Under the pieces are notes generated by a model. That model was not told the DNA's origin. It did no database searches and was given only the letters and a program-made list of their open reading frames with translations. Shown piece by piece: positions 18,954-56,573 of a stretch of DNA of 64,000 nt; position 1 is the first letter of the stretch; each line of letters opens with the position of its first letter. A program made the translations under genes and the position numbers. The stretch covers positions 65,709,501 to 65,773,500 of the forward strand of contig CM027381.1 of NCBI GenBank assembly GCA_015680905.1, written 5' to 3'. The stretch comes from Coptis chinensis. Taxonomy: Eukaryota > Streptophyta > Magnoliopsida > Ranunculales > Ranunculaceae.

Positions 18954-19577
18954 TTATTTTTTACAGCTGATTGGCTAGGTTTGTTCGTCCCAACTCTTTG
19001 GTTTTCATTTAAACTTGGTTATACTTTCTTACCCAGCAGTAAATTGGTCTCCAATCATCAAAATGCTAGAGTAAGTAAAGTACTTTTTTATTCCTGGAAT
19101 TCTCTCTTCTGTTTGTCCTCAGACGTTGTATGGGGATGGTCCTCCACTTCTGCACCTTAAATATCTAGAGTCCAAGATAATGTCAGTCATAGTCATTCTA
19201 TAGTCAATATGGTACACCTAAAGAATTGACCTCTACCGCCGCTTATATCGAAGGACCATCAATCTTTTGGTTTATTGGTTCCTTGTACCTCAAAGAAACG
19301 ACTATGGACATATATGTTATAGCTAAGTAGCAAGTAATTAGGCAAACGACTATGGAGAATGGACATTGATAGTATAGCTACAAACAGAAGGGTCCTGTAT
19401 TTCTAACTTAGTTTCTATCGATAATAAAATCCATCAAACGTCTGTTTCAATGTTCACTGCAATCAGATCTATACATTATTAAAAACATCGATGCCAAACA
19501 ATGCTACAAACCCTTTTCTTATACCCATCAAACTTTACAATGCTTATTCACCACTCTTTAATTTACTCACACAGAAA

Positions 19578-22097: not shown

Positions 22098-22758
22098 GCT
22101 GAAGCCATGGAGTCGATTAAGTTGGAGCTATTGAATTGTAGTTTTATTTAACTCTTTCTCCAACATGTATACAGTATACTGAACTCAACAATCATTGTGC
22201 TATGACTTGTAGAATGAGGAAAAATGAACTCTTTAATAAAATGTTCATTTTTTTCTTTCATTCATTGTATGGTCCTAATGCCTCATCCCTAAACGTATTC
22301 AAAAATGGATATTCTTAGAATCGCAGGACAACATGAAAAATTAAATTGAAACTGAAAAATTAAAAAATAGTCGTTACACACATTAATGATGATAGGATCG
22401 GAAGATAGAGTTTCTTAACTAAGCACTAATAATTTATTCCACACTTTGGCAAATCAAATCGAGGAATGTGAAATTGAAATATTGCTCTATTACTATGCAT
22501 TTTTACTGAGTGGCTTTGGATTACAAAAGAAGGAATTTATGTACAGCCCTTAGTCTACCATTTTGCATACAAAATCTATCCTATGGGCGGCAAGGTCAAA
22601 GACTGACTGAATCTGAACTGGTTATTTGGATATAGAACTTAAACTTTTAAAGTTTAATAAAAATCCGGCTCGGTCTGCTTTGGCCTGGCAACAATGGTCA
22701 CTTGACTCACTTCTGCATGATAACAACCAAATAACAATAGATCAAGCTTGATATACTA
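22098..22758. other. SCPL-1 3' region, no gene
   Basis: 3' UTR and AT-rich intergenic sequence. No open frame of note. Confidence 0.5.
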
Positions 22759-22886: not shown

Positions 22887-23234
22887 GTCTAGTCATATCA
22901 TAATATCATATGGACATATGGTATGGTGAATATGTAAAATTAAAAGGTTATTAGGAAGATGTTCACTAGAGATTAAAACATTGTTCCAAACATTGTTCGT
23001 GGCTTCATTATTTCTGTCCTTGATCTAAGAAAGATGAACTGTTATAGTTGTTAAATTGAAGTTTATGTATTTAGTGGAATTTATAATTATTAGAGAACAT
23101 GTAGAAACAAAAATGCAGATTCTCAAGGCTGGGGAGCGAACTGAATTTCCACTGTTTCCATGACAAAATTAACTGAGAGCGGATTATTCATAAAATGTAT
23201 CATTAACTATATCACAAACAACAATTCATGAAAG

Positions 23235-23766
23235 CGCAACAAGCCTAATTGGTGTTCTATGGTTTGGGGAAAACTAGTTCTACCAAAATACTCCTTTAAT
23301 GGATGGCAGCTCTTCTCTGGGAGTCTATCTACGCAAGATAGGCTCATGCATAAAAAAGTTCTTGCAACATCCTCATGTTGCTTCTGTGACTCTGCAAGGG
23401 AAAACTCCAAACATCTATTTTTTGATTGTCCTTTCTCCAAAAGTGTTTGGTCAATTGTGAAGTATGAACTTGGTCTATAGAGAGCAGTGAAAGCTTCGAA
23501 TGGAGAATGGTGTGATATCATTAACATATGCAGGAAAAAAACTACGCATGCTAAAATTTACAAAGTGTATGTTTGTGTCACTATAGGACATATATGGAGA
23601 GAGAGAAATAGAAGGAGGTTTAAGCATTGTTTAAACTCATGGTGGCATGTTGCTAATTCTATCCTCAAAGAAATGAAAATTTACTTGGGAATCAAGATAG
23701 ACACAATTCTGGACTCTCTAGAAATTAGAAGCCTTCTTGCCAGGCTCGACATCCAAGTTAAATTCA
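23235..23766 (+). mobile_element. LINE-C, left half (zf-RVT domain)
   Basis: Plus-strand frames encode the C-terminal zinc-binding part of a plant LINE reverse transcriptase: LVLPKYSF, STQDRL, CCFCDSAREN with HLFFDCPFSKSVW, then HIWRERNRRRF. One stop (near 23478) separates two frames. The reading stops abruptly at 23766, where the inverted-repeat element begins, and resumes in the same frame at 41627 with the RNase H domain. It is therefore one LINE cut in two by a later insertion. Confidence 0.85.
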
Positions 23767-24127
23767 CAGTTTTTTAGACTTCTGTCCCCAGCAAGTTTGC
23801 TAATTAAATTTCCGTCCCTAGTTCTTTTATTATTAGACTTCCATCCCCAATTTCACAGCATGACCAAGTCAGCTCTCATTGACTTGATTCCATCCTTTTG
23901 GTGAATGTGCAATGTCAAATCTACCCCTCACCATATAAAATGTCCAAAATACCCATTGACTCTTCCAAGACCAAAATCATTCCAATTGCCACGTGTCATC
24001 ATCCTATCTATTTAATCCAACGTACACCAAATATTTTCTTAAATGACACACACTACCCTTGCTTACCAAAAATTACCGAACTACCCTCACTCATGTTTAC
24101 CTTTTTTGCCATGTGTCATCATCCTAA
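23767..24127. repeat. Left terminal inverted repeat of the MULE-like element
   Basis: Matches the reverse complement of 41309-41617. It contains segments absent from the right copy, near 23785-23815 and 23866-23890. Open frames across it are not protein-coding. Confidence 0.85.
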
Positions 24128-24314
24128 CTTATGATCTCAATGGTCGAGAACACCTCATGCAATACACGTCTCAGTGAGTGATGATGACATCACCATCTTC
24201 TTCCATCAAACAAAGGCACGAACAAAACTGTAGCAAGCCCCAAGTTCCAGCCAAAATTCAAAACAAATCAAACGAATCAGTTATCAAAACTTATTCATAA
24301 TTTGCCAATCAAAC

Positions 24315-24643
24315 TGTAGTAGCCATATTCAGGGATGTATCACATAGGTACTGGGCCAAGAGATAAGGCCCAGACCACAGTATGTGTTGAGCCAAGGAAA
24401 GGCCCAAGACTAGACTAGGCCCCATGAGGTAAACCTAAGAGAGGGATATAAAAAGGAAGAGAGAGGGGAGTAAGGGGGAGGAAGAAGAAGAGAGGCATAG
24501 AGGGATGAGGAGAGAGGTGAACTACGGCGGCTTGATCCCGAAATGGGTACGTAGGTAACCGAATTGGTGCAGCCGATCCAAAATAGAGAGTGAATTTGAG
24601 TAAATTTAGAGAGTCGCGAGATTCGCAGTAATAGGGTGCAACA
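24315..24643 (+). repeat. 5' LTR of the non-autonomous element
   Basis: 329 bp, TG...CA borders. Contains GGGATATAAAAAGGAAG, a possible TATA box, near 24447-24455. Nearly identical to 40020-40348. Confidence 0.9.
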
Positions 24644-24645
24644 AA

Positions 24646-24663
24646 TGGCGCCGTCTGTGGGGA
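24646..24663 (+). other. tRNA primer-binding site
   Basis: TGGCGCCGTCTGTGGGGA, two bases after the LTR, a primer-binding string common in plant Ty3/Gypsy elements. It supports the LTR call and its orientation. Confidence 0.75.
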
Positions 24664-25924
24664 TCATGAAGCTAATATCATTCGTGTAGTGGAGTACGTT
24701 GATTGTAGAAATTAGACAAAAGTGGCATCATCTAACTCTCGTTATCATTTTTAAACAGCTAGACGTCAGTTTGTACTCTGTTAAGGGTTTCAAGGGCTTG
24801 TTGGATCTTGCCGCTGGCGATGCTTTGAATTTCGGTCGAGTTGGGAAAAGACTACCTAGAGTGATGACTGTGGCTGGAATTATCGTTGCACTGGAGATGA
24901 GAACCGCAATAGTGTCAACTCTGATATTCCTTCTTCAATATCTCATGAGCATATGATAAGTGTGGGAAATCAGCTTCCACTGCGTGCCCACCGGAGATCT
25001 GATAGTGATGGAGTATGGTATGTCAGCTGGGATGAGGATGTAATTTCTGTTGTTGTCGATGGTGGTGAATGGGTCAGATCTGGTGGTGAGTGGAGAGATG
25101 GGTAGAGAAGATGGGGGAAATCGGTTGGTCTGGACCCATTTCAAATCGGGGCAAAATGGGCTTATTGGGATGTTTTGGGCCTATTAGTTATCTGGTGAAG
25201 CTGTGAAGTAGAAGGAGTCCGTTGAATGCATTTTCTCATATCTGGAAAAATGGGGTGCTAAGCCTCGTTCAAAGGGTCGGGTGCTAACATCCTACGTGCG
25301 ATTCTTTGGTCTTTGGTGTTCTTGTTGGTTTGACAAGCTACAGCGGATTGTTCATCAGGAAGAAGTATGGCTCTTGCGGTGCCTAAGTGAATTACTGGCT
25401 ACCGTGATATTGATGAAAGTTTATAATAGTCCAATTGTTTAGTTATGTTGAGGAATTTTAATAACAAATAATAGTAGGCTCGGAGGGTTGCGGGGGAAGG
25501 CGAGTGGAGCTAAGGAATGGAGAATAACAAGATCGAATGGGGTTTTGATGAGGATGATTCCTACACAATTGTTCTTCATGCCCGGTCCGGTGGATGTGTG
25601 GACGAGCATGTTAGTTGCATTTGGTCATTTTATCCTTTGTTTTCGCAGTTCATTAACAAAGGCCTTGCCAACTCGACATTAGTACAATCCTCGGTGGGGT
25701 AAAAGGTGTTGCTGTTGCAACTCGATTGTGACGATGGTGACAATGGTGGGTGGTGACGATGGGTAAATAATGAAATGATGGTGTTGTTTTGGTGGTACTG
25801 ATCGGTGGTTCTGGTTTGAGAAGGTGGTGACAACCAGGCCGTCGATGGAAGGTGATGGTGGTGCAGACAACTGATTGAGTGATGGAAGGTGCTAGCGGTG
25901 ATTAGAGATGGGTGCCTGGAACTA
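24664..25924. other. Interior of the LTR element, unrecognised
   Basis: Only short frames. One, at 24780-24956 plus, reads GLLDLAAGDALNFGRVG, and one at 25517-25702 plus is acidic. Both look protein-like but I recognise no family, so they may be further captured pieces. 25690-25880 is GGTGGTGA-rich low-complexity sequence. Confidence 0.4.
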
Positions 25925-25958
25925 GTGGCTGTTGGTTTTAATTGTTGGTCTTGGCAGT
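25925..25958. repeat. Left copy of a 34-bp direct repeat flanking the COBRA piece
   Basis: Starts GTGGCTGTTGGTTTTAA. The matching copy, with one mismatch, is at 36354-36387, immediately beyond the other end of the COBRA-derived sequence. Confidence 0.8.
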
Positions 25959-27109
25959 ATCATTTATGGAAGCATAAGGCATTAAAGACTTGTAATTGAA
26001 GCTGAAGATCTTTGTCAGATTGTTGAGATTAGGGTGTTGGACGACCAAGTTCCACTGTGTGTAGTTCATCCTATAATTGAAGTTTGTAATTGTGATCTTC
26101 ACCCGCCAATACTCTTTGTAGTTGAGTTTTACATGCCAATGAACTCGGATTGGGCACATATGGTTGGTACACTGGACTAGAGGCGTATAGCTATTTTTAC
26201 CTTGGCCGGCAATAGCTGACTCTAAGTAAGGCGAGTCTCCCATGACACAGCTTCCTGGCTGAGTTATGTTATTTTGACAGCACAAGTGCAAGTAGGGCAG
26301 TCGACAATTGTATCATTGTAGAAGGAAGAGAGCGAGACACAGCAGGTAGGTGTCTTCTGTGATAGGAATTGTGAATAAGTGCAGGTCCACAAGTATATCC
26401 AGGACCTGGAGCTTTCAACGTAAAATTCTTTGGAACTTTAACTGTCTTGTTGGTAGTTCCTGCTGCACCTACACTAATCACTACATCAGAAAAGGCAAAA
26501 AACGACGGTAATTGCCGTCCTAAATCGAGATTTACGACGGAAAATGGTGTCCCAGAGTTCATCGCGAATAGCCCTGTCGTTAATATTAACGACGGGAAAA
26601 CATGTGGTAACTTGAATTAGAAATACGATGGGTGTGAGACATTTAATGCCGTCGTTAATTTTAGGACATTCAAAACCGTCGCAAATCTCCTTTCTACGGG
26701 AACTATATATTTTCAAATCTAAAACGTACCCACCCGTCGTAAATTTGCGTCCTAAATTTAGGACACACATTTCCGTGATATATTGTTGTTGGAAAGTCAT
26801 TTAACGACACTATGCCCCGTCGTGTTTGTTTAAATTAATGTTTTTTTTAATAATTAATGTTTTTTTGGTAGAACCTATATTTCCTTGACATCGATACTAA
26901 ATACTACCTAATTCTCATTCTCAGATCATAAAATCAATTACACAAACAACATACTAAAACAACACATTTCAAAAATTGATATATTATAAATTGGTTTTCC
27001 AAAATTTACAATGTTTTCGAAAGTAATAACTAGGCTTTTAAAAGTACACAAGTCATAATAAGAACATAATGGAAAACCACCTCCACTATTAGATATGCTC
27101 ATATCGTTG

Positions 27110-29200
27110 AAGCTATTCTACTTGAACCCAGACTGCATAGACGAAAATCCTCCCTTATTGCCTCTACTCTTATCAATCTGCAAACCATAGGAAATGTTTT
27201 TATTAGCCATATGCATAAGTTGGATATGGATTGTTCAGTTCTTAACTTCGTTGAAAGTGGTACATGAAAACTTCAGATCGTATCCTTGTTCAACAGGAAG
27301 GAATAAAGTAAAAGTAGTGTATGCATGAAAAGTCAAAACAAAGTCAAAACGGTATGGCATCTGAAGGGAAAAAAGAGAGCTAGCTAGAAATTGCCTTAAG
27401 ATAATTAAAATACCTTATTATCTGATCCTATAGTCCAAAAGGATTGGTATACAAGACCTAGTAATACAGGGATCCTGTCGAAAGAGAAATCAAAGGCTTC
27501 ATTATGTTAGAATATTCTTCCCAAGTCAAACTTTTGGTGAAGATAATGCTATTTTATCATCGTCTACAATATGTATATAATACCTTGCCGCCAATTTCCT
27601 CTTGAGGCACTTCCATAAGGATCATCATTTTCACCATCTTTCTTGTACTGGTGAACCACAGAATAATGAATATTAGAATATACCTATTTAATGAAGAGTT
27701 ATTCTCCGTGCAATTACAAAGAATGATCTATATGTAACTTCTTCTCTATGTCGGGTCGGAATGAACCCGAACACAAAAGCCCGATTGGATTGTCTTTCAT
27801 GCGGGGCTGGAATTAAAAGGAACCGGCTTGAGCTCATTCATTATAGGGCTAAGCCCGGGGTCATTTTTAGGCTTGTTTTATCATCTTATCAATCAAGAAC
27901 CCTTCACCGCTTGAGCCAATGCCTATGACCCCAGACGGTATGTGGCAACCCTCCCCCTCTCAGGTTAGTTAAATTACTTAGTGACGTTCTGCATAAACAT
28001 ATCAATGTTATATATATACTCACAGTTTGAGCTGGTACAGATGACCGAGCAGTTGATTGATTAGAATAGACGTCTTGAGCTCCATAGAAAATAGACGAGC
28101 TAAGATAATGTGGTTCAACCCTCTCGTCTTGGAAAATGGAACTTCAGCCTCTGTTTGATGCATTTTGCCCTTGACCCCCAGTGGTCTGTGAAGCATTTCC
28201 TGAACCAGACATACAACTTCAGAGACTCTGGAGGATTTCTTGACTTGCATAAAACTTTACCATACCATTACAAATATTTAAAACAAGTTATTCTGAAATA
28301 GGGTTGCTAAAATTGGAATTTTACTGCCTCTTTGTATAGCATACGAGGACAACTGAGTACTGAACGAAACATACTAAACCTATTTACGACAAGCTCATAT
28401 TCGTCCATGCAAGTACAACATACGAATTGATAATATTTCTCTAAATGACTTAATTGGTAATTGATACATATCCACCACATGTGAATGAGTGTACATATAA
28501 ATGACTATTTTCGTTTATTAGTACCAAAGATTGCGATTAGCGAGACCTGTCTTACAGGCTTCAGTTTTCATAGATTCTAGACATAGAAATTTGAAGAACG
28601 AGATTCCGACAATACATGCAGAAAGTATTTTCTATATCTTCTATCAGTGAGTACCTGATAGAATAATACTTCTATTATGACATTTTATTATATAACACTG
28701 TATTGTATTTCAGACACATGTCAGGCATTTTCCAATAGATGTAAGGACACGCTTCAGTAATGGATCAACAATATAACATTATAATGTGATCAAGTACGGC
28801 ATTGAGAGGTGAGGCAAGTGGAGCAAGATTATTATCTTGAATGTCTCAATATATATCAACAAGCTTGTAAGGACAACTTCATTTCCTTCTTTGTTGCTTG
28901 TCTTTTCTGTTAATTGGTTTATTGTCAGTCAAATTAATACTAGAGGAGGTCAAAAAAAAAAAAATTACAATTTCTGGCATCTTTCACGCATAACCTTTAG
29001 CATAAAACACAGATCAAGCATTGGGGTAGTACTAAGTACAAACAGAGAGAAGATAAAATCAATCGAGTTCACTAACTATAATGGACAGGAAGCTAACCTG
29101 ATCCAGAACATTTCCATGTGTATCTTGGATAAGGGGACGGTAATCTCCAAGGAAAAACTGCCACAAAAGATGAAAAGGGATTATAGCATACGGTAATCTC
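27110..29200 (-). pseudogene. Exons of an unidentified host-like gene within the CACTA element
   Basis: Several minus-strand segments look like exons with splice borders. Near 29100-29190: FFLGDYRPLIQDTHGNVLDQ before a GTTAGC donor. Near 28022-28240: a Gly/Asn/Ser-rich segment with PHYLSSSIFYGAQDVYSNQ before GTGAGT. Near 27594-27655: KKDGENDDPYGSASRGNW. Near 27115-27180: a terminal exon, DKSRGNKGGFSSMQSGFK, then stop. Their order and strand fit one transcript's 3' end. The 28-kb exon has an in-frame stop. I do not recognise the family. A charged segment at 30285-30410 (EEAKLRRVNGKRSREAAVAQ) may belong to it as well. Confidence 0.45.
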
Positions 29201-30825
29201 AAAGTTAAAACGGATATATGCATACTACTCATGCGCCAACTAAACATAAAATTTAATTTTAAAAAGTGAAGTTAAGAAATATTTTATCAAGGTTCAAGAA
29301 GTGAACCTACTCAATCACTCGATCTGGTCATGTCAATCCTATTGTTAGTGGCAGTGAACATTAGCACGTCCCTTCTGGGGTTTTGCTCACCGACCATTGC
29401 ATTAAATTCTTTGGTGACGGAAAGCTATACATCACCACTTAAGCTTTGAACTTTATTGGCTCTCATCCTCTTTTATACTATAGATTCCTTTGTATTGGAT
29501 AGGCAATTGCTTAGAAAAGTCAGCTGTCTTCTGCCAGGAAAGTAGGCTTCTTACGCGTTCTTTCTGAAGTAAGCGAAACCTCATATAGTTGAGTTTCGAA
29601 CTTAACTCTAGTCGACTTATTGAAAATAGGATCACGAACTAATTCTGATCTGAAAAGCCCGAGGAAACAAAGTAAGATTTTATATTCCGGGATCGACTTA
29701 GCTTTAGACCCGTCCGATTAGACCCTGGCTTAGCTGACTTACTACAAAGTAGTGCACTTATGTTCTTATCTTAGCTGAAAAGCAGAGATTCACTTTATTC
29801 CTAAACCGTAAAAGATGAGTGATATATGTCTAACTAAACTACAAAGAGGAGTTATGAACCACACAACCAAATATTCAGCAGTCAGTGAGGTTGTGCTGAA
29901 CACTATCCTAAAACCAATGGCTTTCCGAGATCAGCAGCCTAGCGACAAACTGCGTTGAACTAGGACCAACAGGTTGTCAATTATTATTGTATTGAACTAG
30001 TTTGTTAGGACCTAAACATTTAGATAACTTCACGAGTCCAAAAAATCAAATTACGAAAACATTTAGCTAGACTTTAGCCTTGTACAAACTCACTTGTTAT
30101 GTACTGCCATTAATTTAAATTGGTAGGCAAGGAACCTAGAGAACAATGCACAACTAGACATGTTCTTGCATAGAATCAAACCACCAAAACATGCCAAATG
30201 TGCAACCTGAGAATGACACCAAAGAAAAATGACTACTTGGTTGCATGATATTACCAATTCATGAGCAATTCGGGTGAACCTTTTCTTCGGATCTCTGTTG
30301 TGCTACGGCTGCCTCTCTAGAGCGTTTTCCATTTACTCGCCGAAGTTTTGCTTCTTCATTGGATTCATCATCTACAAACTTTTCAGTGGATTCATAGTGT
30401 GTAATCGACACTACAAAGGTTAGAACAGATTTCACTTCTACTTCTCAATGGAAAGTTCCTCGAACCTCCAAAAAGTTGGTTAACTAGAAAACACTTTTAG
30501 ACTCAAATGTTAATTATTAGAATTGAAGAATCATATTTCTTGGTGTCTATTAGAAAATCAACATCCCTTCAAAGGTTAAAAAAAACATTAAAATAACTTG
30601 AGACATAATTAAGAAAGAAGATCAGGAGGGAAAAAAAAGAGAGATTCTCTTACGGGTCTATTCGACATATTTTCTTGAAAGTTAGTGCAGCATGTGTTTC
30701 TCCAAAACCAGTTTCATTTAGACTGTCAAAAGTAGAGACCAAGTTTGTACTCAGCACACAAATCTTGGATTGATTTTGTTCAGACAATTGCAAAGGTAAA
30801 TATTAAGGAGTTAGACTCGGATTAC

Positions 30826-31228
30826 ATACTCTTGGATTTTGTGAATAACAAAGTTGTCACTTGCCTCCCATTGTTCATGTACGTCCTCTACAAACTGTAA
30901 AGATTCAATGCAACCCGTAAACACAGGAATGTATAAGTAATAACGGAACAATATCTTATCAAATAAAAACACTGCCCAACATTGCCTTCTCAACAACAAG
31001 TGAAATAAACTGTGATATTTTCTCGTTATTTTCTTTTTGAAAAAAATGACTTGCCACGAAAGGCATAATGGTTGTCTGTGCAGACTAAAAGTTTTAAGTA
31101 AATCTAAACATAGAAAGGAAAAGTCGCAAACTAAATAGAAATTATTAAGTTGCAAATACCTCCTGACTCTTTGTTACAACGGGTTCACTAATTCCTCTTA
31201 AACGCTTGACCACAGGATGACCATTCAG
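30826..31228 (-). pseudogene. Two exons of a TIM44-like mitochondrial import gene
   Basis: TIM44 tethers the mtHsp70 import motor to the TIM23 channel. Exon at 31160-31228 reads LNGHPVVKRLRGISEPVV then TKSQE; exon at 30826-30894 reads FVEDVHEQWEASDNFVIHKI then QEY. Each is 69 nt with AG/GT borders, and together they match the conserved stretch of plant TIM44 between the coiled-coil and C-terminal domains. No other TIM44 exon was recognised, including the C-terminal domain, so this is a captured fragment travelling in the CACTA element. A pyrimidine-rich, leader-like segment near 35460-35550 on the same strand could be its 5' exon, which is speculation. Confidence 0.72.
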
Positions 31229-31239
31229 CTAAGAACATA

Positions 31240-33156
31240 GACAGATTAGTTTCATAGAATTGTCTACCCAGAAAATACAGAAAAAGATCTTGCTCTGTCC
31301 TACTCCAAGTCCAAGTGTCTCTTTATACGATCGACTTCAAACATCAAAATTGGTACACAAAATATAATAGGTTCAAAAAGAGAATATCTTTAATTAGTTT
31401 AACTCTTTCGAGTAGTAGTTGCTTACCCAAATAAATAACTAGAAACAATACAATTAATTAACCGAACCATCATTCATTACATCAATCGAGAACAAAATTA
31501 AGATTTTGATACTAATTATATTCCGTACTTCCCATAGTGTTTTGCATAATTATTGTGGACCTAATTTAGTTGTTTAGAACCTACCACGATCGCACATACC
31601 CATGTGCCGATCGTACAATGCCCGTACGCCTCCCTCATATAATGGGAACTACTCCGTTAGCCATATTCTAGTGGGACATCAGCCTTGAATATGGATGCAC
31701 GGAAGCCCAGACTATGTGAGTCCAAAAAGAGCCTCAACTGGCTAACAAGTGCACACCTCAACGTTTCTAATAAAGACGGAGAAAATATAATCAATCTGCC
31801 ACACAAGGGCTAACAATAAACTTCCACTTCTTCTGGGCATCGCCACAAAGGCACTTAGTTCATTACCTTGCAGAAGTGGAAGGCCCTACTCCTCAGGACA
31901 TTGGCACTAAGGCATTTAGTTTAGTTTCCTTTCGGAGGGGTAAAATAAACATCAAGGAGTTCTGGTAGTTATAACCTAATTAGACTATGTATACACCTTT
32001 CATTTTTGTCCTTATCCACGTAACAAAGTTTCAAATCAATAACAATACGATATTTCAAGCAAATCTCAACATATAATAATCAAGCTTAAGATCATGCATT
32101 CTAAGCAAATATCATTATGTCAAGAATATGAATTTCAGCCACAATTTAAAATAATAATCAAACAGACATTGTATTATATAGGAAAATATTCATCAATCAA
32201 TCGGTTAAGTATATTTATAATAACCAAGATTAAAACCATGTTTAACCACACTCTACTAAAACAGTCCTAATTTTCTCTATATAAGTTGGATTGACACAAA
32301 TCCAAAGGGGTCAGAAACTACACTCCAATCTCTACAATGTTTGTTCATACCCAAAAACCTAATTCCCACTCAGAAATTCACTTGACCTGATTGTAAACCG
32401 AAGGTTATCAGGAAAAATCCTGATTGACCTTTCTTCACTAAAACTGTCGTAACTTCCTTTGTATAACTTGGATTAGTACAAGGTAAATTGGGTTTGAAAC
32501 ATAATTAAATTACCTACAACTAACGTTTAGACCATGAAAACAGGTTCTTAACAGAAAATTCACAGAACGCGACCAAACACAGAACTTGGTCAGAAAAATC
32601 CTGATGGACCTCTCTGTATTAAAACAGTCTTAACTTACTGTGTAGATATTGAAACGAGGTGAATCCAACTGTATTGGAAAGAAGACTTGCAGATCTAAAA
32701 ATCTTATTCAAGCCCCAAGACCTCATTCCCAAGCATGATTTTTCAGGACTCTTCTGAACCGACCCCAGAAAACTAAACCAAGAAAACTACTGCTTACATA
32801 CTATATTATCAATTCATCTTCCTACACATATATGTTATGACGAATAGAAAAGCATCATAAGATAAAAATAAATCATACACATAGTTAATATAAACAAATT
32901 ACTAAGTACTCACTAGTTTCACGCAATAAGAATCAAATGAGGGGTTGTTCTTCATGAGTAACAACGATATCCTCGGTCCTAAGCAAGGCTCACTCACAAG
33001 CGTTTCTCTCATAGCTTCTTCTTACCTCACTCTTCTTCTCCTTCTCCCCCACAATGTTAGCAATAAAGTATAAATATATTTCAATCTATTTATTTCTAGA
33101 TTATTTCCTAACCATTTAAAATAAATAACCATGTGATAAAAATTGGGGATGTTACA
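31240..33156 (-). mobile_element. Decayed chromovirus-type LTR within the CACTA element
   Basis: On the minus strand the right edge (33156) starts TGTAACATCCCCAATTTTTA, the usual start of Tekay/Del-type LTRs. Inside, three diverged copies of a unit of about 175 bp carry AAAATCCTGATTGACCT and AAAACTGTCGTAACTT-like segments (near 32262, 32420 and 32600). The left limit is not defined; 31240 is only a bound. No coding part was seen. Confidence 0.5.
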
Positions 33157-33556
33157 ACAACAATTCAAGAGCTTAAGACATATAATGTTTAATCATCTTA
33201 AGACATATAATGTTTAATCATGTTTAATCATCTTTAAGACATATAAGACTGGTCAAAGAAATGGTACTGCATGGACAAATCTTAGTTTATATGGTAATTT
33301 CAAAGTAATATTCATCGAACAACTCGAAGTATAAGAAAAATCGGGTAAATATGCATCAAATGCACTTTGTTAGGGTGCTAACACAAGTAATGTACCCGAG
33401 GGATTTTGGGTACACAACTTCAAGAATAAAAATAAGTCTAGTTTTAGATATGCATTAATACCGGTATGAGACCATATTCAATAGCAAAAATCAAGATTTT
33501 AAGAAATCAATAATCTAGTATTATATATACCCCGAGGCTTAAATGCACGGTCCCTC

Positions 33557-33847
33557 TGCCCGCCCGGTCTTGGCGAGAACTTTGGTAGCTTCAAGGGCCT
33601 CTTTCATGCTGCATCCGGAGGCAATAATGGCACGGACAATGGCACCCTGAAGAAGATCCAGCTAATGGTGTTGTCCTGCATAGTCCATGGCAGCCATACA
33701 AGCATACCGAAGCGAGGGGAGCAGGTCCATGGGCGTTTATTGACACCGATGAAGAAGAGGCACCGGTGGCACCAAGAAACACCCAAAGAACAACAAGCAA
33801 GCGGAGGTCCATGGCAGCAGCGACACCCAGCTAGTAAGGAGTTATAG
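33557..33847 (-). other. Protein-like minus-strand segment, unidentified
   Basis: From the ATG at 33812 one frame begins MDLRLLVVLWVFLG, signal-peptide-like, but another frame downstream reads AIVRAIIASGCSMKEALEAT and LAKTGRAEGPCI, which also looks coding. GC content is higher than in the flanks. Probably another captured exon or two in different frames. No family was recognised. Confidence 0.35.
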
Positions 33848-35911
33848 ATAACAACTAATCTATCAAAACTAGAATCTTAGTAAGGTACATCTAGATAACA
33901 CTGTGCTTGTTATAAGGAGTTATAGCGACACCAGAAGAAAGAAGTTGATACTGTCTTAATAGATTTGAATGTTTTTAACTTGCATACCCCCTGGTTTTCT
34001 GGAACAACAAAAAGGAAAACCACAAGATGAGAAGCTTTCCCTTACAACAGAGGACAAGGAAATGTTTCCTAGAAACAACATCTATAACAATCATGTTTTT
34101 CTAACGCATGAACTCAATAGTCAGCCAAAATGGCAGCTAGCTTAGTTGGTAAAGTCAGCGGGCCTAAGCATCCACAGACCACGTAAAGACCTAGAGATAC
34201 TCACCAGCAAAATTACACGGTTAAATATCAAATCGAAAGAAACAAAGAATTAAGAATCCTGAATGCTATATAATGAGCCTCAAAATAGGCCAACATTTTA
34301 AGTTAACTATAAATATTATGGTAGTGGTAGTCCATCGATCCGAATCCAAAAATATAATGATGAAGTTTTTTTTTTTTACGGTGAAGGTTAAATTAATAAA
34401 TTGTAATAGATCAAATGTAATGATGAAGTTATGAAGACAGGATGAATTATATTAATACCATTTTACATATTGAAGTTAACAAAGATAAGATATGAGGAAG
34501 TTAAAGAAAATATACCATTACTATGAAGAAAGAAGTTATATACCTTAATATACCTTATTTGTATCATACCCACATGAACCTGCAAATCAATTAACAAATG
34601 ATTAGTAGATAACCATTTGTACATCTAATGTCATCTATATTTTATCAAAATATTCCAAATATAGCCAAAAAAACTTCCACTTCAAAGATTTGCTTTTAGA
34701 TCGGACTAAGGTCATTAGGGGACCACGAGGGTGGGAGACTCTTGTAATAGGGAGTTATTTCTTTGTTCTTTTGTTTTCTTTCTACGTAGTCATACTGATA
34801 CAATTGAGGTACTCGCTCACTAGTTGTACTTGATGTGCTTTTGCACCCCATTCTAATAAAGTTTACTTATAAAAAAAAAATGCACAGAAACCATAAATTT
34901 TCACAATTGAGATTTTGGAATTTTGGAATTTTTAAAAAGCCCCGACCATGTTTTAGATACCAAACGGACACATTTTAAATTTGAGCAGACAAAGCTTCGG
35001 ACTTCATGCATTAAATCTGGGCAGTCTAACAACACGACCACTCATTCCTTCAAAGTGAAACTGAACTAAAAGTGCAATGCAAATTTCTATATTATATAAA
35101 GACCACTAAAAGCAAATCATTTCAAGTAAGCTTGTATTATCGGTTTCGATATCTAAGAAAAGTATCTTTAACATTCAATTATTATTCTTACAAAACCCAT
35201 GACAATTTTAATTAGGTCGGATAATAAAATCATGCCAACAGTACAATCACATCAAAATACTACAACAAAAAACATAAGCTTTTACATTTTAAGGAGTGGA
35301 ATGAAGAAACCCTGGACAATGTTAAAAACACAATAAATCCAAAAATTTAAGAAATTGAGCCAATTAAAAAAAAAAACACAACCCTAGATTGAAAATTGAG
35401 GTTCAACAATTGAGGCACTTAAAAAAAACGAAGATTGATGAAAGAGAGAGAGGGAGAGAGTGGGTTACCAAAACTTGAAGGGGAGAGAGAGATGTACCGA
35501 CTCTTGTCGATTTTGAGAGAGATTTGAAGCTTACGTACTGTCAAACCACTACCACCAAAGATTTACTGTCAGAGCCCTCCCACAAAAGCCTCACTTTCTT
35601 CTTATACTAGGGTTAGGGTTAGTGAAAGAAAGAAAGAAATATTGGGCGGGGTAATCAATTATTAGTGAAATATTGGGCGGGCAAAAAACAAGGGCAATAA
35701 AATCATCTACGACGGTCACCAAAACTGGAAGAGCACAAAATGTCTCGTCTCTAATTTGGGACGAAAGCTTGTGTCCTTTAGTCACCCCAAGTCAACCTAA
35801 AACCCAACTACGATGGGGTCAAACAATTTAAGACGGTAGCTAATGTTCCTAATTTGAGACGGGTTATATAGTCCCAAGAGTGTGTCCTAATTCTTAAATT
35901 CTGGTGTAGTG
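33848..35911. other. CACTA interior and right subterminal region, no gene
   Basis: AT-rich, intron-like sequence. GA-rich runs lie near 35440-35500 and the subterminal CACTA motifs start near 35700. A tRNA-like box string at 34135-34200 was not convincing. Confidence 0.45.
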
Positions 35912-36639
35912 AATTTGGAATGAGCTTGCCGCATTTCCAGGATCCTGGGCCCAAGAATTGAGTACGCCTCCTTTGCAGCAATTTGCTATCTGCTGATTGT
36001 ATGGAGTTCCCGGCCATAAATCCACGACCATTGGGTCCTTCTTTCAACAATGAGGAATGTTTCCTTTAAATCTTGAACAATCACCCTGCTCCGTTGTTTG
36101 GCTTCCCACCATGCTCCAGATTACCTCCTTTTTGCCCCGCCCATCCCAATGCCCATCCCGGTGCACGAATATGACGATATGGCTGGAAGTTGTACATTAT
36201 AAGCTGTTGCAACATAACCATCAGGAGTCCAGCTCATGATATCCCATTTGATTGTGATATTTCCATTTGGATCAAGTGCATCATAAGCTTCTGTAGATGT
36301 GAAGGTGAAGCAAGAAAACAGGAACAGTAACAAAAGAGTGTAACAGGAAAGTTGTGGCTGTTGGTTTTAATTGTTGGTCTTGGTAGTGTTGGCTTGATGG
36401 TTGCCTGGGCGTGTTGACTAATCTGTGTTGTTGGTTGTGATATCTGTGCTGTTGGTTGTGATTTCGGTGATGTTGGTTTTGTTTGTTGTCGCTGTAGTGG
36501 TGGGTGTTGGTATTATTAAGACTGTGGGTGGTTGATGGGCTGGTCGAGCTCGCTGTCGCTTCCTCTGCAAAGGTTACTGATTCAACAAGATCAGTAACTT
36601 TTGGGGGTGAGAAAAAATGGGGACTTTCTAAAAGTTTCT

Positions 36640-36929
36640 AAAAGATGTGTCTGGCGGTCTTGTTCTTCTTTGGAGGATTTTGTGTTGGGCATTTGTATTC
36701 GGAGTTAGAAGATGAAACTTGGGTTTGAGTTGAATCCAGTCTTGGGGAGTGCTTTGGTTTATTTTTATTCTAAATGTGGGTGCTTTTCAGAAGCTTTTGA
36801 AATATTCAAGGCTACTAATTGCGGTGATATAATTTCTTAGACGACAACGATCTCTTCATGTGTACCAGCTCGGGAATGGGGCCTGGCTCTAAGGCTTTAT
36901 GGTCAGATGATTAAGGGGATCAGACTGAA
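36640..36929 (+). pseudogene. PPR-repeat gene fragment in the LTR element
   Basis: PPR proteins bind organelle RNAs. The plus frame reads SCSSLEDFVLGICI, a stop, then KLGFELNPVLGSALVYFYSK, GCFSEAFEIF, DIIS with a stop where PPR proteins have Trp, TTTISSCVPAREWGLALRLY then GQMIKG. These are parts of about two or three consecutive plant PPR motifs. The fragment has no start or end and joins the EngA piece directly. Two in-frame stops mark it as dead. Confidence 0.75.
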
Positions 36930-37480
36930 CAGGAAAATTATATTCCTACAAGTGCTATAGTTGGCCGGCTAAATGTTGGTAAAAGTAGCATGTTGAATGC
37001 ATTAGTTGGAGAGGACAGGACAATTGTTAGCCTTATCAGTGGTACTACTCGAGATGCAATTGAAACAGAACTTACTGGGCCAGATGGTTAGAAGTTCAAG
37101 CTTATTGACACAGTTGGGATTAGAAGAAGGGCAGTGGTAGTTTCATTTGGTAGCACAACAGAGGCATTATCAATGAATCGTGGATGTCGTTGATCTTGTT
37201 ATTGAGGCTTTGGCTTGTAGAATAGAGCGGGATTACAAGATTGCGGAAAGTATCGAGAGAGAAGGGAAAGGTTGCGTGACCATTGTTAACAAATGGGATA
37301 CCATACCAAATAAAAAGTTGCAGACAACGAGCTATTATGAAGAGGATGTCAAGGAGAAGTTTCGAAGCCTTAATTGGGCGCCAATAGTTCATTCCACTGG
37401 AATGGTCGGCCATAGTGTTGAAAAGGTCGTGGCTACTGCTAGTAGTGTGGAGAGAGAAAGGTCAAGAAGATGGGAATAGA
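36930..37480 (+). pseudogene. EngA/Der GTPase fragment (second G domain) in the LTR element
   Basis: Der/EngA is a double GTPase needed for ribosome assembly, in plants in the chloroplast. This fragment covers a G domain: [17 protein letters not shown] (P-loop GxxxxGKS), [12 protein letters not shown] (G2), LIDTVGIRRR (DxxG), then after a deletion and frame change DVVDLVIEALACR, REGKGCVTIVNKWDTIPN (NKxD) and YYEEDVKEKF to SVERERSR. A TAG interrupts it near 37090. The homologous host gene has many introns, but this piece is continuous over about 550 nt, so a reverse-transcribed origin is likely (inference). It is fused upstream to a PPR piece. Confidence 0.85.
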
Positions 37481-38060
37481 TTTGGGTTATCCCCAAACCT
37501 CGTGATATTGCGCAGACCTGTTAGCGCTAAGTTATCTAGGTGTCCGCAGACCCGGATGGGTAACATGGCTAACCATTGTGTTTATATTCTCGTAACTGCT
37601 CTCGATCAACTGTAGGACAACGGTGTAGTTATTTGTATGTATCAGAGATTGAACCTTGGCTTCCACATAAAGTCTGGAGAAATCATAGTTGTGTTTCACA
37701 GCCAAAGTAAGTGCATAAGGAATGTTTGGCGAAATGCGTGTAAAGATGTTTGTTCTGTGTACATGTGAAAAAGGGAATCCTTCATGAAGGTTGCATAGTG
37801 ATATGAAGGTGAGTTGCATGCAACGAATAACTCAGAAATCCAGAGGAACAAAGAGATCTAGAGTTTGGGATTGAGATCAACAGATTGGAGCGTCCGAATA
37901 CAAATGGTGAGATGATTCTGAAGAGATCGAGAGAGACATACATCTGTGGCGGAGTTCTGAGAGAAAAGAAAGATTTGCGGTACCGTGGAATAGAGTGGAG
38001 ATTGAGCTGATATTTACTAGATGATGTTTGGTCTATTCTTATGTGGGAAGAGATAGAGAT
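37481..38060. other. Interior of the LTR element, unassigned
   Basis: A minus frame at 37640-37790 reads KHNYDFSRLYVEAKVQSL and looks protein-like. It may be another captured piece, but I cannot name it. Nothing else seen. Confidence 0.35.
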
Positions 38061-38289
38061 GAGCTGCCTTTAAGCCAAAGAGCAGGGGGGATGAGCCTTC
38101 CGCAGACCCTCGTGTCCGAATCAAACGTGGGGGAGGCTGAGCTATTCCCGGATGTGCATTCCGAAGGAGAGCGGAGGGGTTCGAGAAGACCCTTCGTGGA
38201 TATGTCGTGGGACTATCCGAAGGAGTGCGGGGGTGATGAGCCCTCCGCGGACCCTTGTGTCCAAACAGCGCGTGTGGGGCAGGCAGAGC

Positions 38290-38930
38290 TGTCCCGAACC
38301 GGCGACAACCCGGTCGAGCCCGCGGAGTGGGGTGAGCCCTCCACGGATCAGAGATGCTAGAGATACATGGGGTAATGAGAGAGCCCCAACAGGCGAGAGT
38401 ATGAGCGAGCCCGCGGAGTGGGATGAGCCCTCCACGGATCAGAGATGCTAGAGATACTGGGGGCAATGAGAGAGCCCCAACTGGCGAGAGCCCGAGCAAG
38501 CCCGCGGAGTGGGATGAGCCCTCTGCGGATCAGAGATGCTAGAGACACATGGGGCAATGAGGGAGCCTCGATTGGGGAGAGCCCGAGCGAGCCCACGGAG
38601 TGGGATGAGTCCTCCGCAAATCGGAGATGCTAGAGATACATGGGGCAATGAGAGAGCCCCAATAGGCGAGAGCCCGAGCGAGCCCGCGGAGTGTGATGAG
38701 CCCTCCGCGGATCAAAGATGCTAGAGATACATGGGGCAATGAGAGAGCCCCAACCGGCGACAACCCGGTCAAGCCCGCGGAGTGGGATGAGCCCTCCGCG
38801 GACCAAAGATGCTAGAGATACATGAGGCAATGAGAGAGCCCCAACAGGCGAGAGCTCGAGCGAGCCCGCGGAGTGGGATGAGCCCTTGGCGGGGTGAGAA
38901 GGGCAAGAGACAAAGGCGAGTCAAAGAGAG
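38290..38930. repeat. 91-bp GC-rich tandem array
   Basis: Six to seven copies containing GAGCCCGCGGAGTGGGATGA, GATCAGAGATGCTAGAGATA and ATGAGAGAGCCCCAAC. Copies start about every 91 bp (landmarks near 38346, 38438, 38529, 38619, 38711 and 38802). Because 91 is not a multiple of three, each copy restarts the same open frames one frame over, giving a ladder of overlapping ORFs on both strands that are not genes. Confidence 0.9.
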
Positions 38931-38939
38931 TAGCCCCGA

Positions 38940-39800
38940 GCAGCTTGGTTGAGCCGCAGGTCGGAGATGCAAAGATATGCGGACATGAGATCCGAACAAC
39001 GAGGGGATGATCTCTCCGGACATGAGATCCGAGTCCAACACAGGGGGGCAAAGCAGAGTTACCCCTCATCGACTCAATCCAGGCGAGAGATATGGCGGGG
39101 GGGATGCCCCCTGCCCGGACATGAGATCCGAGTCAAACACGGGAGCAAGTGGAGTTGCCCCCTCATCCGACTCTCCACCCGAGGCGAGAGACAACGGGGG
39201 GATGAGCCCTCCCGGACATGATAGAGATTTCTATGAAGGAGAGCTTATGGCTGGCGGAGACCCTCATGGACATTCTAGTGAGTTATGAGAAGGAGAAATA
39301 CTGAGGGGGACAGAGACACTCCGCGGACATAGTGGTGAGTTCTCTGAAGGAGAGATGGTGGCTGAGGTGATACACTCCGCAGACAGGGCAGTGAGTTCCG
39401 AGAAGGAGAGCAGGTGGCTGGGGGAGGCATACCGCTGATATGGTAGGGAGTTCTATGTGAGAGGTGATGGTTGGGTTGAGACGCATCGTGGGCATTGTAT
39501 TGAGTTGAAGAGAGAGAGTGAAGGGAATGAGATAGTTGAGTCCTACGAAAGGGAAATGAAAGGGTGAGACACTCTGCGGATATAGAAGTGAGTTATGTGA
39601 AGGAGAGATTATGACAGGGCTGAGACACTTCGCGGACATAGTGGCAAGTTTTCGGAAAGAGAGATGTTGGCTGAGGTGAGACACTCCGTGGACATAGTAG
39701 TGAGTTTTATGAAGGAGAGCTTATGGCTGGGTTGAGACACATTGTGGGCATTGTATCGAGTTGAAGGGAGAGAGCGAAGGGGATGAGATCCTTTGGGGAT
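38940..39800. repeat. Two further tandem arrays before the polypurine tract
   Basis: 38960-39220 repeats GGACATGAGATCCGAGTC with a GGCGAGAGA string (spacing about 110 bp). 39220-39760 repeats GAAGGAGAG, GGCTGAG, GAGACACTCCGCGGACATAG and GTGAGTT at about 70 bp. Tandem arrays next to the 3' LTR are a known feature of some plant LTR retrotransposons. Confidence 0.8.
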
Positions 39801-40019
39801 ACGTTAATGGGGTATATGAACAAGAACTGATGGATTGAGTACTTCATAGACGTACGGTCCAGTAGCAGAGTACATGGATACGAAATGTCCTAAGGAGGAG
39901 AAGACTACGTACAGTCACAAGATACTGTGGATATCTAGAGTCCAAAGAGAGAGACAAGAAAGTTTGAGGACTTCTTGGATCCACCGTCGTCATCGCCGCT
40001 GAACCCGAGAGGGGGCAAA

Positions 40020-40348
40020 TGTAGTAGCCATATTCAGGGATGTATCACATAGGTACTGGGCCAAGAGATAAGGCCCAGACCACAGTATGTGTTGAGCCAA
40101 GGAAAGGCCCAAGACTAGACTAGGCCCCATGAGGTAAACCTAAGAGAGGGATATAAAAAGGAAGAGAGAGGGGAGTAAGGGGGAGGAAAAAGAAGAGAGG
40201 CATAGAGGGATGAGGAGAGAGGTGAACTACGGCGGCTTGATCCCGAAATGGGTACGTAGGCAACCGAATTGGTGCAGCCGATCCAAAATAGAGAGTGAAT
40301 TTGAGTAAATTTAGAGAGTCGCAAGATTCGCAGTAATAGGATGCAACA
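40020..40348 (+). repeat. 3' LTR of the non-autonomous element
   Basis: 329 bp, preceded by the polypurine tract GAGAGGGGGCAAA. Differs from the 5' LTR at about four sites, all transitions. Confidence 0.9.
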
Positions 40349-40389
40349 AATCATACAATTTCAAAACAAATCAAACAAATTGGGAATCA

Positions 40390-40575
40390 AAATATTCCGA
40401 CATGGCCATCCTGAACTACTTCTTGTGCTGCTTAGGCGAGACTACAGTAGGGGATGAGTTTTTTGGTCCACCTAAGATGGCTGAAGCCTTCACCCATGTG
40501 TCAAAGTGCTTGTCCCATGTGTATTGTCTCACGAAATCGATAATCCCAATAACCAGTTCGTGCTTCTGAGTGATG
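40390..40575 (-). pseudogene. C-terminal FAB1 (PI3P 5-kinase) fragment in the MULE-like element
   Basis: FAB1/PIKfyve kinases make PI(3,5)P2 on endosomes. The minus strand reads [20 protein letters not shown], then [26 protein letters not shown], a stop, and FRMAMSEYF, which is the extreme C-terminus of plant FAB1. A stop replaces a basic residue near the end and the rest of the kinase is absent. An acceptor-like AG precedes KHEL, so an exon border may be present. It sits between the LTR insertion and the right inverted repeat. Confidence 0.82.
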
Positions 40576-40956
40576 GATATTGGACAAGGCGTTGGCCTCT
40601 TTATAACTGCAAAACCAAGCTCTGGACACCGGCCTGGTTAGTTAGACACATCTATTCTTGTAAACTATTGACTGTTTCTTGTAGCATCTATGTGGACATT
40701 GAGTAGTATAGTAATATAGTTTCCCTTGACCACTCGCACACAACAGTAGTGGAGGAACACTAACCTTAATAACATAATATTGATCTATTAGAATTTTTTT
40801 GGGCAGTCAAGGACCAAACCATGTATGAATATATAGTTTCAGCATACATTCTCAACTCTTAGATGTCTATCCAAGACTTGCTACAGTATGTAGATAGATC
40901 ATCACTTTTGTCTTCTATTCTTAGCGTAGTGTGATATTTGTTGGCTGACTTTTCAT

Positions 40957-41036
40957 ATGGTTATGTCTTGCATTGAGGGGAGCCCAGCTGATCGCGCTGG
41001 TATACATAAAGGGGATGAGCTTATTGAGATTGATGG
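40957..41036 (+). pseudogene. PDZ-domain exon of a C-terminal processing peptidase (CtpA-like)
   Basis: CtpA processes the D1 protein C-terminus in the thylakoid lumen. The exon reads VMSCIEGSPADRAGIHKGDE then LIEIDG, a PDZ-domain signature, and runs into GTAAAG, a donor site followed by intron-like sequence. Only this exon is recognisable. Retention of the splice site suggests DNA-level capture by the MULE-like element. Confidence 0.75.
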
Positions 41037-41302
41037 TAAAGTTAACAAACTTTTTGAACTTATTTCTCATCTGATACTCTATGGAGATCAGCACCATTTT
41101 GAAATCCAGCCTACAGTGTCATGTGAACCTTGGATTTCTATACACATGAGCTCCGACCATCACATAGGTGTGGGAGAGATGGAGATCTAGAAGATGAACA
41201 GTACCTTTGTTCTTTTGTTGTATTTCTTATTATATTTTCTTTGAAAAGAAAAGTAGAAAAAGAAAGTTGATAGAGTGGTTTGAGATGCTGGTCCACTAAC
41301 CT

Positions 41303-41617
41303 AAGATGCTTGTTAGGATGATGACACGTGGCAAAAGAGGTAAATGTGGGTGATGGTATTTCGGTAATTTTAGGTGAGCAGGGGTAGTGGGTGTCATTTA
41401 AGAAAATATTTGGTGTACGTTGGATTAAATGGATAGGATGATGACACATGGCAGTTGGAATGATTTTGGTCTTGGAAGAGTCAATGGGTATTTTGGACAT
41501 TTTATATGGTGAGGGGTAGATTTGACATTGCACATTCACCAAAAGGATGGTCATGCTGTGAAATTGGGGATGGAAGTCTAATAATGAAAGAACTGGGGAC
41601 GGAAGTCTAAAAAACTG
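41303..41617. repeat. Right terminal inverted repeat of the MULE-like element
   Basis: Reverse complement of the left repeat. It lacks a segment of about 31 bp and one of about 24 bp present on the left. Followed by the 9-bp duplication TTAAATTCA. Confidence 0.85.
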
Positions 41618-41626
41618 TTAAATTCA

Positions 41627-42185
41627 AGACCAAACTACCTATCCAGTGTAGATGGAAGTTCCCTCCTTCTGGTTACATTAAGTGGAACACATACGGCTCT
41701 ATGAAATTAAACAGTGTCGGCTATGGAGGAATAGGCATTATTGATCATCTTGGGAATGTTGTCTTCTCTTATGCTGGAGGAGGATATCAACGATCAGTTC
41801 TTTACCAAGAACTAAAAGCCATTGAAATAGGTCTTCTTCTTTGCCAGCAACAAGGAATTCTCAAAGTTTCAGTTTGTTCAGACTCTCTCAGAGCAGTGCA
41901 TATCCTCAAAGGATCAGAAATTGCACCATGGTACTGTTGTAACTTAACAGCAGCTATAACCTATCATGTCTCTAAGCTTGAGGATGCATGTCATATTCAC
42001 TCATGTTTATCTAGAAGTTAACCAAAGTGCAGATTACTTAGCAAACCTTTCTTGTTCTGTAGATGATACTCATGTATGTAATGGTCCACCCATGGACAAT
42101 AGATTTGCTGAACTTGTATTGAATGATGTAAGGGGAATACTATATTTAAGATGATGTAAGGGGAATACTATATTTAAGATCTTAA
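41627..42185 (+). mobile_element. LINE-C, right half (RNase H domain)
   Basis: Continues the LINE-C reading frame: KWNTYGSMKLNS, GGIGIIDHLGNVVFSYAGGG, SVLYQELKAI, SDSLRAVHILKG, then after a frame change VNQSADYLANLS and a stop near 42154. This is a plant LINE RNase H domain, with the expected DGS changed to YGS. A 28-bp segment (TGATGTAAGGGGAATACT...) is tandemly duplicated at 42124-42178. No poly(A) tail was seen. Confidence 0.82.
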
Positions 42186-42369
42186 TGCAGGTAAGGGTCT
42201 GCCTAACCCTATTAACCTTTTTCAACAATTCATGAATTTACATGTATCTTCCTTATTTCCACCAAAGATACAACTCATGAAACGTTAGCAACAATGTTCA
42301 ATCTGTTTATATTATGTAGTTTAGTTCTGTTCCAATTTTTTAAAGAATTAAGCTTCATTTGTACTGAGA

Positions 42370-46511: not shown

Positions 46512-47090
46512 AAATGACTGTGGACATGTATTTTTTTTGGAAGAGAGTAGGACCCCAAATTAAACCCTCCCATTCTTATCCTCCTCAATAATGTTCATGA
46601 GAGTTAAGGGGAGGTACAAAATAGTCAGTTACAAACTCATTTTCTTGAGCAGCAAGGAAGTCTGCTACTCTTTTAGATTCCCTAAATACATGTAGAAAAT
46701 TATACAGTTAAAAAACTTCTCAAAATGGATTTAATAGCGCAACTAGTAAGTGTGCACATTGCCAAGACGCCTTCTCCTGATCCTTCAGAATTCTAATAGC
46801 TCTCATTGAATCTGATGCCACTATGATTTGCTGCACCTGCAACATTTGACAACCTTTTAATGTCATCTCATTCATGAATACTAGAGGGCAGTACCATGGC
46901 AAGCAAGGAAATTGATCCGGAGCATTAAAGAGTTGGAGAGACAATTGGAACATTTTACTATACATCATGTGTATAGGGAAGCAAATAAATTGGCTGATGT
47001 TTTAGCTAATAATGTACCCAATGTGAGGAATGTTGATATTATCCCTAGTTCATTCTCAGAGGATATTAGGAAGATTGTATATGAGGATGT

Positions 47091-56541: not shown

Positions 56542-56573
56542 TCGTTAAGTAAAGCAACAACAGAAAAATATTC

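Follow-up and report, generated by a model that had tools for sequence, protein, structure and literature searches.

Deep nesting of transposable elements and the capture of gene pieces by them are well known in plants (PMC4290129 and PMC13317346, partial texts). On wheat chromosome 3B, 30,199 nested insertions with up to eight layers have been reconstructed (PMC4290129, partial text), so the view of an earlier note on the locus described here, that so many levels are uncommon, is too strong. We analysed a window of 64,000 nucleotides from Coptis chinensis in which four mobile elements are nested, a LINE enclosing a Mutator-like element (MULE), the MULE an LTR element, and the LTR element a CACTA element. 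Three of the four (MULE, LTR element and CACTA) hold pieces of host genes, and the nest adjoins an SCPL (serine carboxypeptidase-like) protease gene. The process behind the nest is ordinary in plant genomes and this example of it is well preserved; its odd point is an LTR insertion without target duplication. A narrow search of one open library found no title on this locus, which does not prove absence.

Structure of the Nest

The features of the nest and its surroundings are as follows.

19571..22187, plus strand: SCPL copy 1
23219..23232: LINE target duplication, left copy CAACAATTCATGAA
23233..23766, plus strand: LINE 5' part, 5'-truncated, zf-RVT region (from frame, domain search and paralogue L002)
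23758..23766: MULE target duplication, left copy TTAAATTCA, perfect 9 bp
23767..41617: Mutator-like element with inverted repeats and 9-bp duplication, 1817 bp of own sequence without the inner elements
about 23767-24128 and 41312-41617: MULE terminal inverted repeats
24315..24643, plus strand: 5' LTR, 329 bp, with PBS-like TGGCGCCGTCTGTGGGGATC 2 bases further on
25925..25958, plus strand: 34-bp direct repeat, copy 1, beside the COBRA piece
25959..26478, minus strand: captured COBRA cDNA piece, 3' half, spliced
26476..26478: CACTA target duplication AAT, left
26479..35911: CACTA element, 9433 bp, CACTACATCAG...CTGGTGTAGTG (from termini and duplication)
30829..31228, minus strand: two TIM44 exons (31160-31228 and 30829-30894) within the CACTA element, still separated by their intron
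35912..35914: CACTA target duplication AAT, right
35912..36353, minus strand: captured COBRA cDNA piece, 5' half, spliced
36354..36387, plus strand: 34-bp direct repeat, copy 2, beside the COBRA piece
36733..36930, plus strand: captured PPR piece
36942..37476, plus strand: captured Der/EngA GTPase piece
38293..38912, plus strand: 91-bp tandem repeats, rich in GC, in the LTR element towards its 3' end; its relatives have matching repeats
40020..40348, plus strand: 3' LTR, polypurine-like GAGAGGGGGCAAA ahead of it, without 5-bp target duplication
40945..41070, plus strand: PDZ-domain fragment inside the MULE
41618..41626: MULE target duplication, right copy TTAAATTCA, perfect 9 bp
41627..42222, plus strand: LINE 3' part, RVT_3 (from frame, domain search and paralogue L002)
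42223..42236: LINE target duplication, right copy CAACAATTCATGAA
42363..45712, plus strand: SCPL copy 2, with a frameshift and a stop near its start

At the outer level, the LINE open frame ends at 23766 and picks up in frame at 41627, just as the earlier note had it. The joined LINE piece carries zf-RVT (3.2e-17) and RVT_3 (5.4e-7), its frame already contains two stops on the upstream side of the join and a frame change on the downstream side, and a Ranunculus protein aligns across the join. The uninterrupted LINE copy L002, with a single TTAAATTCA, matches both halves through the join at 90% identity (1027/1136 columns alike), and the halves thus come from one LINE copy and not from different ones, which would have spoken against the nest. 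The element shows the class features of a LINE, namely ORF2-type 3' domains (zf-RVT, RNase H-like), a target duplication of variable length and 5' truncation. The chance probability of the flanking 14-bp duplication CAACAATTCATGAA is about 2e-4, and part of the CAA and GAA found at its edges may belong to the LINE; LINE relatives end in ...TTTC and then an A run, where the window copy has only CAA, overlapping the duplication. A fixed short LINE-derived element is ruled out, as the relatives run on about 2 kb farther upstream. Three SCPL copies were found, not the two initially counted.

Both the long terminal inverted repeats and the 9-bp target duplication of the Mutator-like class are present at the second level. 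The inverted repeats were detected as two pairs of arms that align without gaps over 239 and 63 nt, with 94% complementarity in either pair, and the duplication TTAAATTCA is perfect at 23758-23766 and 41618-41626, as first described. Eight MULE copies lack the LTR element, seven of them continuous across the LTR site and the eighth seen as a 141-base stretch. L018 escaped a pattern search (4 mismatches) yet was seen in another comparison, and L022, with an inverted repeat only and no LTR site, was left out of the counts. The eight copies are nevertheless few independent witnesses because several share flanks (L018-L021 have common flanking sequence). Between MULE copy L015 and the window, 702/731 columns are alike with 4 gap columns, which gives 25/727 substitutions against 4/329 for the LTR pair (P = 0.042, Fisher's exact test). 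Small indels are common between paralogous repeats here.

The innermost CACTA element cuts a COBRA piece with AAT on both sides, and leaving out 26479-35911 restores the COBRA frame, in agreement with the earlier description. CACTA termini and a 3-bp target duplication are present, the class being assigned by ends and duplications and not by transposase. Three relatives elsewhere are 9380, 9428 and 9454 bp long against 9433 bp in the window, and 3-bp duplications flank each of three CACTA relatives examined for them (cat/cat, aat/aat and cca/cca). The TIM44 exons reported inside the CACTA element are there as well; this piece aligns with a C6 locus unbroken across the intron at 83%, and eight other close CACTA copies bear it with its intron. 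The 45-aa TIM44 piece gave no match in Pfam, and its two matches in PDB (best E 0.21) are neither of them a Tim44. Four to five levels had been proposed, the fifth being an old LTR inside the CACTA element. Four are demonstrated; the fifth was rejected, since self-comparison found no LTR-like pair inside the CACTA element and the three relatives have nearly the same length (9380-9454 bp). One decayed LTR, common to the CACTA family as a whole, may be present.

The nesting gives the insertion order LINE, MULE, LTR element and CACTA. The order originally suggested is also backed by uninterrupted paralogues for three joins (LINE without MULE, MULE without LTR element and LTR element without CACTA), all of them paralogues within the same assembly and not the orthologous site of another plant. 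Target duplications are clear at three levels (14 bp for the LINE, 9 bp for the MULE and 3 bp for the CACTA element). The element families are repetitive, and the sister LTR element L025 shows patchy differences, as might be expected if separate repeats had been misjoined in the assembly; however, exact target duplications at three of the four levels, the restoration of frames or homologies once each inner element is left out in silico, and a window without any N make such an artefact hardly credible. The nest is real and has four levels. We consider it very probable that a 5'-truncated LINE inserted upstream of an SCPL gene copy, that a MULE with its PDZ gene fragment then inserted into the LINE, that an LTR retrotransposon without recognisable gag-pol inserted into the MULE, and that a CACTA transposon entered the LTR retrotransposon after the latter had landed, the gene pieces of the two inner elements having been captured earlier.

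The LTR Element and Its Gene Pieces

The paired 329-bp LTRs seen previously differ at 4/329 sites. This would date the insertion to about 0.6 My at a rate of 1e-8 (95% range 0.17-1.56 My), and such dates would double at the 0.5e-8 with which the same genome paper scales demography. The element has the paired LTRs (TG...CA), PBS and polypurine tract of LTR retrotransposons, the latter two judged by eye, and no gag-pol frame was recognised by eye among ORFs of at least 100 aa.

The COBRA piece aligns with a C8 gene in five blocks (98.4, 98.9, 96.7, 98.6 and 100% identity), and GT...AG intron edges occur in three of the four gaps between these blocks in the gene; since one of the four gaps also takes in coding sequence, the capture was not a plain copy. 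Similarly, the Der-like locus has intron-sized gaps that are absent from the captured Der piece. In the sister LTR element L025, COBRA is present, CACTA is absent and ACACTAATTTGG is exactly joined. Its COBRA piece differs from that of the window at 69/950 sites in clustered patches, and the two LTRs of L025 are 5.8% divergent, which together make an age comparison of the two elements unsafe and could reflect assembly noise. Because the sister element elsewhere has the COBRA piece, the piece is not an event of this locus. COBRA had been listed as a separate level, a place it loses as a piece of spliced mRNA captured earlier by the LTR family.

The 34-bp direct repeats at its two sides could be taken as the target duplication of a separate insertion into the LTR element, e.g., a LINE-made processed pseudogene, and the 34-mer is indeed single in the six COBRA-free LTR relatives that hold it (8/14 COBRA-free relatives, L027, L030, L033-L037 and L039, in which it was not found, were left out). 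However, the piece starts within the signal peptide, ends within the coding region, has no poly-A and is also found in the sister element elsewhere, so we regard a separate insertion as unlikely. Intermediate forms survive within this one genome: some LTR elements lack the captured pieces, others hold PPR/Der, others again have COBRA in addition, and one of these has a CACTA on top. We propose that the LTR family took up spliced mRNA, PPR/Der first and COBRA next, probably by template switching in reverse transcription, and that the CACTA family would have taken genomic TIM44, intron included; the host-gene pieces of both inner elements would thus have been acquired earlier and elsewhere. A narrow literature search in one open library found no match on template switching with intronless gene capture.

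An LTR Insertion without Target Duplication

The earlier note had given each level its own target duplication, which holds for the LINE, the MULE and the CACTA element but not for the LTR element, whose left flank is CAAAC and whose right flank is AATCA. In contrast, all 15 relatives of the LTR element that were fetched have a perfect 5-bp duplication. In all 16 copies the 3' LTR end was set by the same rule, choosing from -3 to +8 bases the ...ACA with the best duplication (for L033 and L035 the end shifted by one base), and LTR matches without a partner were dropped ahead of the counts. With 15/15 relatives qualifying, the family has the 4-6-bp duplication expected of it whereas the junction of the window copy does not, and this junction is unlike normal integration of its family.

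We tentatively propose that end joining placed a linear cDNA of full length into a break, without the staggered cut of integrase, which would have left both LTR ends intact and no 5-bp duplication, with one base lost. A normal 5-bp integration and a later loss of about 6 bp at the edge of the right LTR, removing one copy of the duplication, would need a single small deletion of a kind common between the paralogous repeats here, and nested elements quite often lack a duplication, as only 830/1491 nested pairs were kept as having one of 4-6 bp (PMC6911290, partial text); but the deletion must then have begun precisely at the final LTR base, and we find this course somewhat doubtful. It is far less probable that the LTR element did duplicate its target over 8 bp (AATCAAAC and AATCATAC, 7/8 alike). 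Both 8-mers directly adjoin the LTR ends, and at this site six MULE copies carry just one 8-mer of the kind; however, the MULE copies L015 and L049, without the LTR element, already have both 8-mers adjacent (AATCAAACCAATCATAC), and the pair thus looks older than the LTR insertion. Moreover, the 15 relatives all have 5 bp, and among nested elements in a 12-genome study 765 duplications were of 5 bp, 61 of 4 bp and 4 of 6 bp (PMC6911290, partial text). We also rejected the idea that L015 once held the LTR insertion and lost it by excision, leaving a footprint, or by deletion, as L049 has the same paired 8-mers and the pair looks older.

Comparison with Known Systems

RNA-level capture, with introns gone, and DNA-level capture, with the intron kept, are contrasted at this one locus. 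This contrast and the surviving intermediates make the locus useful for testing how gene pieces are gathered by plant transposons. It also serves as a warning, since transposon interior is what P0125 (IFM89_004856) and gene models like it are built from.

As in the nested clusters of wheat chromosome 3B, different element classes lie inside one another and their relative order can be read from the nesting, although with four levels in 19 kb the Coptis nest is modest beside the eight layers reached there (PMC4290129, partial text). Pack-MULE and Pack-CACTA elements are likewise DNA transposons with host-gene fragments (PMC13317346, partial text), and the kept TIM44 intron is what capture at the DNA level leads one to expect; the Coptis elements differ in their host, and their membership is by ends and duplications, not transposase. 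Bs1 of maize is, like the Coptis LTR element, an LTR retroelement with pieces of three host genes (PMC13317346, partial text), those in Coptis being COBRA, Der and PPR. Unlike in Bs1, as far as the partial text of the same source describes it, COBRA lies antisense to the Coptis element between 34-bp repeats, and the Coptis family still includes relatives that hold fewer pieces.

Structure of the nest

The window (G000:C5:65709501-65773500, in an assembly of 935,630,033 bases and 116 contigs) bears four elements, one inside another, beside serine carboxypeptidase-like (SCPL) copy 2.

Features of the nest and its SCPL surroundings
19301-22187, SCPL copy 1
23233-23766 and 41627-42222, LINE, joined in frame, with zf-RVT and RVT_3 domains
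23767-41617, Mutator-like element (MULE), terminal inverted repeats of about 300 bp and 9-bp duplication TTAAATTCA
24315-24643 and 40020-40348, LTRs of the LTR element, different at 4 of 329 sites
26479-35911, CACTA element, AAT at both edges
42363-45712, SCPL copy 2, adjoining the nest
51716-53792 and 58433-59125, SCPL copy 3, in two parts

The earlier note had reported the LINE frame that stops at 23766 and resumes at 41627, the inverted repeats with a 9-bp duplication, the paired 329-bp LTRs and the AAT on each side of the CACTA, all of which are present. The alignments of rejoined flanks that it proposed also bear out the nesting: the LINE copy L002 is continuous through the LINE join (1027 of 1136 columns alike) with a single TTAAATTCA, and the sister LTR element L025, which has the COBRA piece without the CACTA, holds the exact uninterrupted site ACACTAATTTGG. 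Moreover, a Ranunculus protein spans the LINE join in alignment (96/242 residues identical). The LINE is flanked on left and right by a 14-bp duplication, CAACAATTCATGAA, and is 5'-truncated, because similarity between L009, at the locus of L002, and another copy, L010, runs about 2 kb further upstream (93%, 2053 columns). An insertion of about 2.4 kb interrupts the L010 copy (C7:23804000-23811000) at another position. The three CACTA relatives checked all carry CACTA termini with 3-bp duplications.

The LTR element junction

The same note had assigned each level its own target duplication, but this fails for the LTR element, whose flanks are CAAAC and AATCA. We fetched 15 further two-LTR loci from 40 scored LTR matches (710 candidates), and in all 15 a perfect 5-bp duplication sits immediately beyond ...AACA. 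The LTR element is absent from eight MULE copies: seven lie in fetched loci (among which L018-L021 have flanking sequence in common) and the eighth, L049, in a 141-base stretch. The insertion site reads CCAATCAAACAATTTC, or one letter different, in six of them and CCAATCAAACCAATCATAC in L015 and L049. In the latter two, the window's left flank ...AATCAAAC abuts its right flank AATCATAC... except for one C, and thus the LTR insertion added no visible duplication. This is the single unexpected detail of the nest; its rarity should not be overstated, since missing duplications are not rare in nested LTR elements, 830 of 1491 nested plant pairs being kept as having a 4-6-bp duplication in PMC6911290. 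Judged from LTR divergence, the element would be about 0.6 My old at 1e-8 (95% range 0.17-1.56 My).

Host-gene pieces

The COBRA piece (Pfam COBRA 3.6e-48, COB_C 9.4e-37; best protein match in Thalictrum, 82% identical) lies antisense to the LTR element between 34-bp direct repeats. A gene on C8 matches it in five blocks separated by gaps of about 495, 356, 289 and 107 bp, three of the four with GT...AG edges; the 289-bp gap starts inside coding sequence and so includes a deletion in addition to any intron. When the genome was searched with the left half of the piece, that half was matched over its full length in the window and L025 alone. Among the 14 fetched COBRA-free relatives, the 34-mer is single-copy in six (L026, L028, L029, L031, L032 and L038) and was not found in eight. 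Template switching during plus-strand synthesis may have captured COBRA, which would fit the antisense placement and the duplicated 34-mer. The COBRA piece of L025 (C4:73728798-73735715) differs from the window's by small indels and substitutions in clustered patches, and these differences may be repeat assembly errors left uncorrected.

The PPR and Der/EngA pieces (Der/EngA PDB match 3.9e-37) are present in L028 without COBRA and nearly complete at C2:62442731 (98%). We infer that the LTR family captured PPR/Der first and COBRA afterwards. The joined PPR-Der pair also occurs, more diverged (75-79%), at G000:C6:76257697, C8:57717901, C62:100744 and C9:56999010, and the fusion may therefore predate the LTR family. 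From its three blocks with intron-sized gaps, a C7 locus looks like the Der parent. This Der-like locus is seen twice with the same blocks (C7:2813346-2814932 and C72:180340-181934), which may reflect a duplication or a haplotype contig left unmerged.

The MULE has 1817 bp of its own sequence, including a PDZ fragment whose best PDB matches are a bacterial zinc metalloprotease. Seven relatives (L015, L018-L021, L023 and L024) each align with parts of it, and none of the seven matches the PDZ-bearing middle.

The TIM44 piece in the CACTA shows 89%, 89% and 87% identity with three Coptis proteins, and its segment is matched at eight other places (94-97% over at least 630 bases). Because C6:8538391-8539051 aligns with it unbroken across its intron (83%), on a contig that, judged by its length, also holds the two Tim44 gene models, the piece was most likely captured as DNA. 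An annotated 320-aa C. chinensis protein, IFM89_004856, is made up of sequence from inside the CACTA, with the TIM44 piece included; its gene model lists no Tim44 domain.

SCPL surroundings

The window has three SCPL copies rather than the two noted earlier. Copies 1 and 3 share 90% identity over a common 1628-column stretch, and copy 2 is disrupted close to its start by a frameshift and a stop. An LTR element at 53793-58433 (LTRs about 607 bp, 97.7% alike) splits copy 3, so the nest does not stand alone as such an insertion within the window. This element appears to be flanked by a 5-bp GTACC duplication, and copy 1 gives the uninterrupted site. A second insertion, at 46534-51716 between the segment downstream of copy 2 and copy 3, is flanked on left and right by GTGGACATGTAT and has a run of T at its left edge, 26-bp tandem repeats in two blocks 81% alike and, judged by eye, LINE-like and Ty3-like reading frames inside.

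Comparison with known systems

On wheat 3B, 30,199 nested insertions of up to 8 layers are described (PMC4290129), host pieces are carried by Bs1, Pack-MULEs and Pack-CACTAs (PMC13317346), and LTR elements have captured 672 genes in rice and 1,343 in sorghum (PMC3726574). Nesting of insertions and capture of genes are thus already established in plants, and the Coptis nest is a clear new example.
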